DNA of 64,000 bases from Spirochaetes bacterium GWE1_32_154 (GTDB lineage Bacteria; Spirochaetota; GWE2-31-10): assembly GCA_001829315.1 (NCBI GenBank), contig MIAY01000001.1, positions 1 through 64,000 on the forward strand. The letters are read 5' to 3'. Of the stretch, positions 7,518 to 55,950 are shown one piece after another (positions within the stretch are counted from its first letter, which is position 1; each line of letters begins with the position of its first letter). Made by a program: the position numbers and the translations under genes. A model generated the notes under the pieces. That model was given only the letters and a program-made list of their open reading frames with translations, was not told where the DNA came from and did no database searches.

Positions 7518-7567
7518 GAGCCTCTTGCAAAAAAACTTTTATTTTCTCGAATTTTTGCAAAAGCCAA
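7518..7567 (+). repeat. Dispersed palindromic element, short form (copy A)
   Basis: A 50-bp element starting GAGCCTCTTGCAAAAA and ending TTTTTGCAAAAGCC. It is flanked by TACT on both sides (7514-7517 and 7568-7571), consistent with a 4-bp target duplication. It is related to the copies at 13571, 17877, 48099 and 55611. It lies between the EamA gene and metX and would form a hairpin in the metX leader. Confidence 0.7.
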
Positions 7568-12540: not shown

Positions 12541-12870
12541 TCATTTGTTGCTTTTAAAACTATCATCCTGTAATCTTTTTCCGATAGTTCTATAAATTTC
12601 TTCTTTTTCTCGCTTTCCAATTCCCCATATTCCTAAGACTTCAATTTTTTCAGGAGTAATCATTCTATAAACTATTCTAAATTTTCTGCTGTGAGCATAT
12701 ATTTTATAAAAACCAGTAAGGTCAATATTAAATTTATGCCCAAGCCTTTCTCCCAAAAATGGATTATCCTTTAATTCTTCTATTTTCGTATTTATACTTT
12801 TTTTTACGCTTCCATCTAACTCTTTATAATCTTTTGTAGCTTCAGGAATAAAAACTATTTTGTATTCCAT
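12541..12870 (-). CDS. RelE/ParE-family toxin
   Basis: 109 residues with the RelE-fold pattern: MEYKIVFIPEATKDYKELD at the N-terminus, then NPFLGERLGHKF, GFYKIYAHSRKFRIVYRM and VLGIWGIGKREKEEIY. RelE toxins are usually ribosome-dependent mRNA interferases. Three bases separate it from the upstream Phd-like antitoxin gene, the usual antitoxin-first order. AAGGAA lies upstream of the ATG. No disruption is visible, so the pair looks intact. Confidence 0.87.
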   Translation of the reverse strand: MEYKIVFIPEATKDYKELDGSVKKSINTKIEELKDNPFLGERLGHKFNIDLTGFYKIYAHSRKFRIVYRMITPEKIEVLGIWGIGKREKEEIYRTIGKRLQDDSFKSNK

Positions 12871-12873
12871 CTT

Positions 12874-13143
12874 CTATTCCTTAATTCTTTCCCATTCTAT
12901 TGCATTATTAGTTTCATAACTTTTAACCCGGCTGTTTATCATGTTATTAATTTCATAATACTCAAACATCTCTTCTAAATTAATTAAATATTCATATTCA
13001 GAAAAAGGAACTATAACTGCTTCCATATTATTATTTTTTAGAATAAATACAGGTTCACCTGTTTCTGATAATTCTCTTACGGTTTGTGTTAGTTCCTTTT
13101 GTAGTCGTGTAATAGGCATAATTCGATCAGTTTCTACCAACAT
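12874..13143 (-). CDS. Phd/YefM-family antitoxin
   Basis: 89 residues from the ATG at 13143, chosen because GAGGAG stands upstream; the frame opens earlier at 13191. The N-terminal DNA-binding region reads RIMPITRLQKELTQTVREL, then GEPVFILKNNNMEAVIVPFS and EYEYLINLEEM, the Phd/YefM signature. The C-terminal tail (KSYETNNAIEWERIKE) is the likely toxin-neutralising segment. It probably represses its own operon together with the RelE-type toxin. Confidence 0.86.
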   Translation of the reverse strand: MLVETDRIMPITRLQKELTQTVRELSETGEPVFILKNNNMEAVIVPFSEYEYLINLEEMFEYYEINNMINSRVKSYETNNAIEWERIKE

Positions 13144-13205
13144 ATTGTTTACTCCTCGTATATATATTATAATATAACACAAGAGACACATTTAAGATGT
13201 TTTTT

Positions 13206-13778
13206 TTAATTTTCTTCTAACCTTAAATCAAATGCCTTTTTACTTTCACCATCAAAACCTAATTTTTCATAAAATGTATGTGCGCGTTCTCTTTTCATTC
13301 CACTTTGTAATATTACTTTGTAGCAGTTTTCATTTTTTGATAATTCTATTGCTTTTCTAATTATATTTTTTCCAATACCTTTTCCTCTGTAATTCTCATC
13401 TGTTATGACATTTTCAATAAAACCTATTGACCTGCAATTGTTAGTAATATTTGGTATTATAACTAAATAACATGAGCCAATTATTTTTCCATTATCCTCT
13501 GCAACAAGATATTTTATCATTTCTGTTTTCATGCTTTTTTCTATTATTTTTTTCGCATTATTTATATCGAGAGCTTCATGCAAAAATCCCTTATTTATCT
13601 CGAATTTTTGCATGAAGCTACCTTAAACGCAATTTTATTGCGTAACGACGGACGCACAATCAAGTACTCTTGATTTTTGAAAGAGCCACTCAATATTTAT
13701 ATTATTTAAATCAAGTTGTTTGTACAAATCAATCAATTGAGTTAAATCATCTGCTATTAATTCTCTAATAATTATCAC
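13206..13778 (-). pseudogene. GNAT acetyltransferase gene split by a 119-bp inverted-repeat element
   Basis: Two parts of one GNAT gene flank the element at 13571-13689. The 5' part starts at a GTG at 13778 (AAAGGA upstream) and encodes IIIRELIADDLTQLIDLYKQ, a typical GNAT N-terminus. It then runs into two in-frame TAA codons inside the element. The 3' part encodes IIEKSMKTEMIKYLVAEDNG, the acetyl-CoA-binding GFIENVITDENYRGKGIGKN, and YKVILQSGMKRERAHTFYEK. Removing the element and one copy of the 4-bp repeat joins the parts in frame as ...NINIDINNAKK.... An ATG inside the element (13613) with AAGG upstream could restart translation of a 135-residue fragment lacking the normal N-terminus. Confidence 0.85.
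13571..13689 (+). mobile_element. Palindromic non-autonomous element, long form (copy B)
   Basis: 119 bp, the same length as copy D. The ends are inverted repeats around a CATGCAAAAATC / GATTTTTGAAAGAGCCAC core. Inside are a 50-bp hairpin module (13571-13619), a small stem ACGCAAT/ATTGCGT, and a third stem AATCAAG/CTTGATT. Flanks are TCGA (13567-13570) and TCAA (13690-13693), a nearly perfect 4-bp duplication. It encodes nothing of useful size, so any movement would depend on a transposase elsewhere. Confidence 0.82.
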
Positions 13779-17876: not shown

Positions 17877-17926
17877 GAAGCTCATGCAAAAATTCGAAAT
17901 ACAAAGAGTATTTTTGCATGAGGCTC
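17877..17926 (-). repeat. Dispersed palindromic element, short form (copy C)
   Basis: A 50-bp hairpin element in the opposite orientation to the other copies, with GCTCATGCAAAAA pairing with TTTTTGCATGAGGC. It is flanked by TAAA on both sides (17873-17876 and 17927-17930), a perfect 4-bp duplication. It lies in the divergent space between the cyclase gene and eno, just upstream of the eno promoter. Confidence 0.75.
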
Positions 17927-48098: not shown

Positions 48099-48217
48099 GA
48101 GCTTCTTGCAAAAATCCCTTATTTATCTCGAATTTTTGCATGAAGCTACCTTAAACGCAATTTTTCTGCGTAACGGCGGATGCACAATCAAGTACTCTTG
48201 ATTTTTGCAAGAGCCAC
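48099..48217 (+). mobile_element. Palindromic non-autonomous element, long form (copy D)
   Basis: 119 bp, the same size as copy B and nearly identical. The ends (GAGCTTCTTGCAAAAATC and GATTTTTGCAAGAGCCAC) are inverted repeats. It is flanked by GTAT on both sides (48095-48098 and 48218-48221), a perfect 4-bp duplication. Internal stems (ACGCA/TGCGT and AATCAAG/CTTGATT) are conserved. It lies between the phosphatase and hybrid-kinase genes. Confidence 0.85.
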
Positions 48218-55608: not shown

Positions 55609-55950
55609 ATGAGCTTCTTGCAAAAATACTTTTTTTATCTCGAATTTTTGCAAAAGCCTCTGCAAATTATATTTCTTGAAGAAGTCAAAAATGAATTGGC
55701 TGATACAGTAAATTATGATAATAATCAGAATAACGGATTAGAATACGAATTTGCTGTTGAAGTAAAAATAACTATAGATAGAATCATTCAGTACCCGGAT
55801 GCTTGATTTGGTCTTTCAAAAAGAACAAAAAGATGCAGATGTAACAGGTTTCCTTACGTAATTATTTATTATAAAGATGGTGATATTATCGTAATTATCG
55901 CTGTCATGCACCTCAAAAGAAAACCAGAATATTGGGAAAATCAGCTCTAA
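55609..55950 (+). pseudogene. ParE-family toxin remnant with an internal stop
   Basis: An in-frame stretch reads through the 50-bp element, then IIFLEEVKNELADTVNYDNN and EYEFAVEVKITIDRIIQYPD, then A and a TGA, then in the same frame NRFPYVIIYYKDGDIIVIIA and MHLKRKPEYWENQL. The order and residues match ParE (F-LEEVKNELADTV-Y and RFPY...V-HLKR-PEYW). The TGA at 55804-55806 replaces what is normally a Trp codon (PDAW), a single-base nonsense change. The N-terminus has been replaced by the element, which supplies a new ATG. No ParD gene is next to it. Confidence 0.82.
55611..55660 (+). repeat. Dispersed palindromic element, short form (copy E)
   Basis: A 50-bp element (GAGCTTCTTGCAAAAATAC ... 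GAATTTTTGCAAAAGCCTC) at the start codon of the ParE-like pseudogene. No target duplication is evident, which may reflect decay. Joining bases 55601-55608 to 55661 onward gives ATGCAAATTATATTTC, an ordinary ParE-type start. Confidence 0.72.

Follow-up and report, generated by a model that had tools for sequence, protein, structure and literature searches.

We found that a GNAT acetyltransferase gene in the 64,000-nucleotide stretch of DNA analysed here (the window) was split by the insertion of a 119-bp MITE, and that a 97-98% identical duplicate of the gene elsewhere in the same genome retains the empty site, against which both the insertion and the 4-bp duplication of its target can be demonstrated. 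Such a before-and-after pair within one genome is unusually clean, and it pins down exactly where a MITE of the IS1182 type begins and ends and that its stagger is 4 bp. The element belongs to a family for which a covariance model, built from 20 copies, finds at least 150 copies in the genome, and both the origin of this family and its past movement can very probably be traced to an IS1182-family transposase of the ISUnCu17 type.

The split GNAT gene and its empty site

The MITE copy occupies positions 13571 to 13689 (plus strand, located by blastn and the covariance model) and reads GAG...CAC, the family consensus being GAG...CTC. Its left terminal repeat, GAGCTTCATGCAAAAAT (13571-13587, plus strand), doubles as the 5' arm of the first hairpin of the element, and its right terminal repeat (13673-13689, minus strand) reads GTGGCTCTTTCAAAAAT in this copy and GAGGCTCTTGCAAAAAT in the consensus. 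As described in the initial annotation, which was made from the sequence alone, the element lies between TCGA (13567-13570) and TCAA (13690-13693). The GNAT gene is encoded on the minus strand, with its 5' part (VIIIRELIADDLTQLIDLYKQLDLNNIN) at 13694-13778 and its 3' part at 13206-13566. Its frame, VIIIRELIADDLTQLIDLYKQLDLNNINIE, runs into the element after DLNNINIE and then meets, inside the element, the two in-frame TAA codons that had been claimed; once the element is taken out, the rejoined gene reads NNINIDINNAKK and is recognised as a GNAT domain (Acetyltransf_1, E 2e-19), in agreement with the proposed restoration of the frame. An ORF of 135 aa (13613 to 13206, minus strand) covers the 3' part and has its ATG within the element, with AAGG seven bases upstream; translation of the truncated GNAT protein could begin from this start codon contributed by the element. 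A search of Rfam gave no family match within the window.

Searching with the joined protein, we found an unbroken duplicate of GNAT on another contig of the same genome (L031, C34:121215-121661). The two proteins are 97% identical; at the nucleotide level, identity is 98% for the 3' portion and 91% for the part of the 5' portion that aligns. Both alignments meet at one TCGA in the C34 copy, at which point the window has TCGA, the 119-bp element and TCAA, and the junction of the C34 copy reads NNINIDINNAKK. The 4-bp duplication proposed by the initial annotation is thus borne out, with TCGA as the original target, the left copy being unchanged and the right copy being TCGA with a later G-to-A change. 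The same annotation had predicted a NINID-like junction in an uninterrupted homologue, and the C34 copy is such a gene. Four homologues from the Treponema group, sharing 47-54% identity, are also uninterrupted at the junction, as are other, more distant ones; the homologues that align across it with no such insertion come from Treponema, Roseburia and a further genome of the order. Because homologues elsewhere are uninterrupted, the gene was originally unbroken and the copy in the window is the derived form. Two outcomes named beforehand as arguing against an insertion, namely a split shared by relatives and a homologue aligning to the element-derived sequence, did not occur among the homologues found.

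The antitoxin-like gene next to GNAT in the window (compared stretch 12541-13205) is missing from the C34 region (L031, C34:119715-123064), as is part of the neighbouring RelE-like gene; homology between the window and C34 covers 12559-12737 and then jumps to 13205-13206. GNAT and toxin-antitoxin genes are typical integron cassettes. An integron attC site was therefore considered, but it is made unlikely by the position of the element inside a gene and by the accompanying target duplication.

Copies, ends and target duplications of the family

By blastn, 40 full or near-full copies were scored among 239 candidates in the same genome, while the long-form covariance model found no copy in eight other genomes of the order. 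The sequence GAGnYTCTTGCAAAAAT forms a terminal inverted repeat present at both ends of the element; the full 17-base end has 211 perfect matches in the genome versus none in the reversed control, and its core, TTGCAAAAAT, occurs 466 times versus 16. Most copies are 117-121 bp long and some are 138-164 bp (96 copies), and they contain no transposase gene. Variants of 138-139 bp are present at L222-L226, L229, L156, L158, L232 and L238.

For 96 flanked copies, the boundaries of which were set by the model blind to the flanks, an exact 4-bp direct repeat was found in 63; when the flanks were shuffled 2000 times, the number of such copies averaged 2.3 and never exceeded 9. The repeat reaches 5 bp in a single copy. 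The remaining third lack a perfect duplication, as expected from decay, and this is also compatible with recombination. The target sites are AT-rich, with G rare just before the duplication and C rare just after it, a mirror-image preference. A short length without a transposase gene, inverted ends, a duplication of fixed length, many unrelated sites and an empty site together identify the element as a MITE. The initial claim that it moves by insertion with a short target duplication is proven for a past insertion by a transposase-type mechanism, the 4-bp duplication being family-wide.

The window contains further members of the family. A second full copy (48099-48217, plus strand), 95% identical to the first, is flanked by GTAT/GTAT. 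Of three short forms, one of about 50 bp with a single hairpin (7518-7567, plus strand) is flanked by the direct repeats TACT/TACT and one of 50 bp (17877-17926, minus strand) by TAAA/TAAA, and the third (55611-55660, plus strand) has no preserved duplication. A genome from a sister genus in the same taxonomic family (G001) has its own 88-98-bp MITE, with identical ends and a different core (L134, L150, L154, L157, L159 and L161), some copies of which have 4-bp repeats (TATT, TTAT).

Besides the window GNAT, further genes have frames that are lengthened when the element and one repeat are deleted. For example, a second GNAT gene, different in sequence, is split by copy L010 (C30:4104-4221) with the duplication ACTC, and frames are reopened in a ferric-reductase-like gene (AAAA), a methyltransferase gene (TGAT) and two genes judged from their sequence to encode histidine kinases (TCTA and AGAT). 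Pfam matches were obtained in the joined second GNAT, methyltransferase and ferric-reductase-like genes, and the domain matched extends across the junction in both the second GNAT and the ferric-reductase-like gene. The orientation of genes neighbouring the copies showed no clear bias, a crude comparison based on rough ORF calling giving 34 versus 20 for the two co-directional cases.

Traces of a probable IS1182-type mover

In a search of 296 genomes of the phylum, the end was matched 14 times in G001, 3 times in G008 and 4 times in G292. In the genome of the window itself, a DUF772 transposase domain is located near a perfect end on contig C40. This relic is the frameshifted N-terminus of an IS1182-type transposase, starting 106 bp inside the perfect GAGCCTCTTGCAAAAAT end (C40:1091), and by our reading it has been cut by an IS21-like element. 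Read through its frameshifts, it matches transposases of the IS1182 family, with ISUnCu17 as the best match; the transposases of ISUnCu17 and related elements share 42-45% identity with the fragment. ISUnCu17, from Aeromonas, has the ends GAGCCTCTTGCAAAA and GAGCTTCTTGCAAAA and the duplication ATGA/ATGA; an IS1182 element of Comamonas has the end GAGGCTCTTGCA and the duplication TGGT/TGGT; and the Acinetobacter IS copies examined have related ends and no clear duplication. In G008, which belongs to the same order, three contigs carry an IS start that shares with the relic both this end and the first residues MKSIADLLGD, and one aligned example is 80% identical to the C40 relic over 148 bp. In G292, the same end precedes a related transposase start.

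Apart from the C40 N-terminal relic, of which no further piece was found, the search revealed no intact IS1182 transposase in the assembly, and the PF13751 profile had no match in this genome. The PF01609 (DDE_Tnp_1) profile identified one transposase in the genome, L131 (C36:78935-79429), a single copy with an open frame that appears on reading to be IS982-like; it was rejected as the mover, being a different IS with no family ends in its surroundings. Since draft assemblies lose repeats, the absence of an intact transposase is provisional. An intact parent transposase in the same genome is usual for active MITEs, but it is not strictly defining. Of the features of an IS1182 derivative, the family has matching ends, shared with ISUnCu17 and the C40 relic, and the expected duplication length, while an intact parent was not found in the genome; the resemblance to the IS is limited to the ends, and the cores differ.

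With no intact IS1182 transposase found in the assembly, we infer the mover from the ends and the duplication length. The transposase would have recognised the ends GAGnYTCTTGCAAAAAT and, presumably acting in trans, would have cut the TCGA target in GNAT with a 4-bp stagger and joined the element to it. Gap repair would have produced a TCGA copy on either side of the element, of which the right one later changed to TCAA. The insertion split one of the two GNAT duplicates. The family may have spread through this genome in a burst, after which its mover was probably lost.

Mobilisation by a transposase of another family recognising the same ends is unlikely. It would fit the lack of an intact IS1182 transposase in the assembly, where the search covered some transposase families, but the ends, the duplication length, the relic with the same end in the genome itself and the same IS start within the order all point to IS1182. 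It is very unlikely that GNAT was split before it was duplicated and that the C34 copy arose by precise excision leaving one TCGA; the two histories yield the same sequence pair, but excision calls for an extra step, and with the homologues of other species uninterrupted at this position the unbroken form is ancestral either way. The small size, hairpin formation and high copy number of the element also recall REP/BIME or IS200/IS605-type hairpin repeats, which would be spread by a Y1 (HUH) transposase without target duplication. Such an origin is hardly credible, however, for an element with inverted ends of the IS1182 type and with the exact 4-bp signature of a staggered cut in 63 of 96 copies.

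Among the closest systems known, MITEPye1 of Paracoccus yeei, an IS1182-type MITE of 159 bp, has 18-bp ends like those of IS1182-family elements, 4-bp direct repeats, an intergenic location and a long stem-loop, and is present in 1-3 copies per chromosome along with IS1182 elements (PMC11578231). The spirochaete family shares the IS1182-type ends and the 4-bp direct repeats, but it differs in its copy number of at least 150, in its three-hairpin core and in that only a decayed IS1182 fragment was found beside it. Methanosarcina acetivorans has two described MITEs associated with ISMac2 (IS1182), of which one has a 4-bp repeat; it is 160 bp long with 14 copies, IR 26 and DR 4, and the borders are as a rule the only parts of such MITEs that are similar to the IS (PMC3852290). 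This MITE is likewise associated with IS1182 and has a 4-bp duplication, but its host is archaeal, its ends are longer and its copies far fewer. With ISUnCu17, the family shares near-identical terminal 14-15 bases and a 4-bp duplication, whereas ISUnCu17 and related IS of Aeromonas, Comamonas and Acinetobacter plasmids are about 1.44-1.48 kb long and carry a full transposase, and only their ends were seen to match the MITE.

Like Correia, ERIC, RUP/BOX and QMITE, the spirochaete elements are high-copy, hairpin-forming bacterial MITEs and mostly intergenic, but these other families differ from them in ends, duplication lengths and source elements. High copy numbers are known for both ERIC and Correia, with up to hundreds of copies of ERIC (PMC10969869). 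In the part of the literature covered, no MITE of this type was found in spirochaetes. IS1182-type MITEs with 4-bp duplications are thus already known, and the spirochaete family itself is new; less usual are its copy number, the apparent loss of its mover and its conserved fold. This large family, which no other genome of the order was found to contain, has apparently outlived its mover here and could be used to date a burst.

The three-hairpin fold

All copies have a common three-hairpin fold, the stability of which is far above that of shuffled sequences (z about -5 to -6). In the window copy, the inner arm of hairpin 1 (13604-13619, minus strand) pairs with the left terminal repeat, with which it covaries across the 96 copies; in hairpin 2 (ACGCAAT/ATTGCGT, 13627-13643), about half of the copies show two-sided changes at two positions; and hairpin 3 (the ATCAAGTACTCTTGAT region) lies at 13658-13675. 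Over the 96 copies, 94.3% of cells pair and 16 of 34 pairs show two-sided changes, in an alignment that was fitted to the structure and so favours it, and no shuffle or slide matches the observed pairing. Position 5 of the left end, which is T or C, has a mutual information of 0.85 with the inner arm and 0.00 with the right end. The left end thus changes together with the inner arm but independently of the right end, indicating that the left hairpin has been kept rather than end-to-end pairing, and this makes the retention of hairpins in bacterial MITEs a testable question.

One arm of an imperfect palindrome is known to template correction of the other during replication, and we give an even chance to such correction, acting with no selection, as the source of the paired changes; it is compatible with an IS1182 origin of the family. 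Hairpin 1 is a near-perfect palindrome, hairpin 2 has only two main states, and the paired changes are concentrated in a few subfamilies, all of which favour correction between arms. On the other hand, the states found in hairpins 1, 2 and 3 are freely combined, with all four combinations of hairpins 1 and 2 occurring, and wobble G-U cells number 62 as against 28 A-C cells on the given strand, a weak sign of RNA constraint in cells that are related by descent and not independent. Rather doubtful, by comparison, is selection on the fold, under which copies would be kept or spread through a structured RNA transcribed from one strand or through a single-stranded DNA form, and the left terminal repeat would serve as a hairpin arm beyond its role as a transposase site.

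Two long variants examined in detail, L011 and L025, carry close to the right end an additional AT-rich hairpin (AAAAAAAGTAC...CTTTTTTT), and from these variants the family seems to be modular.
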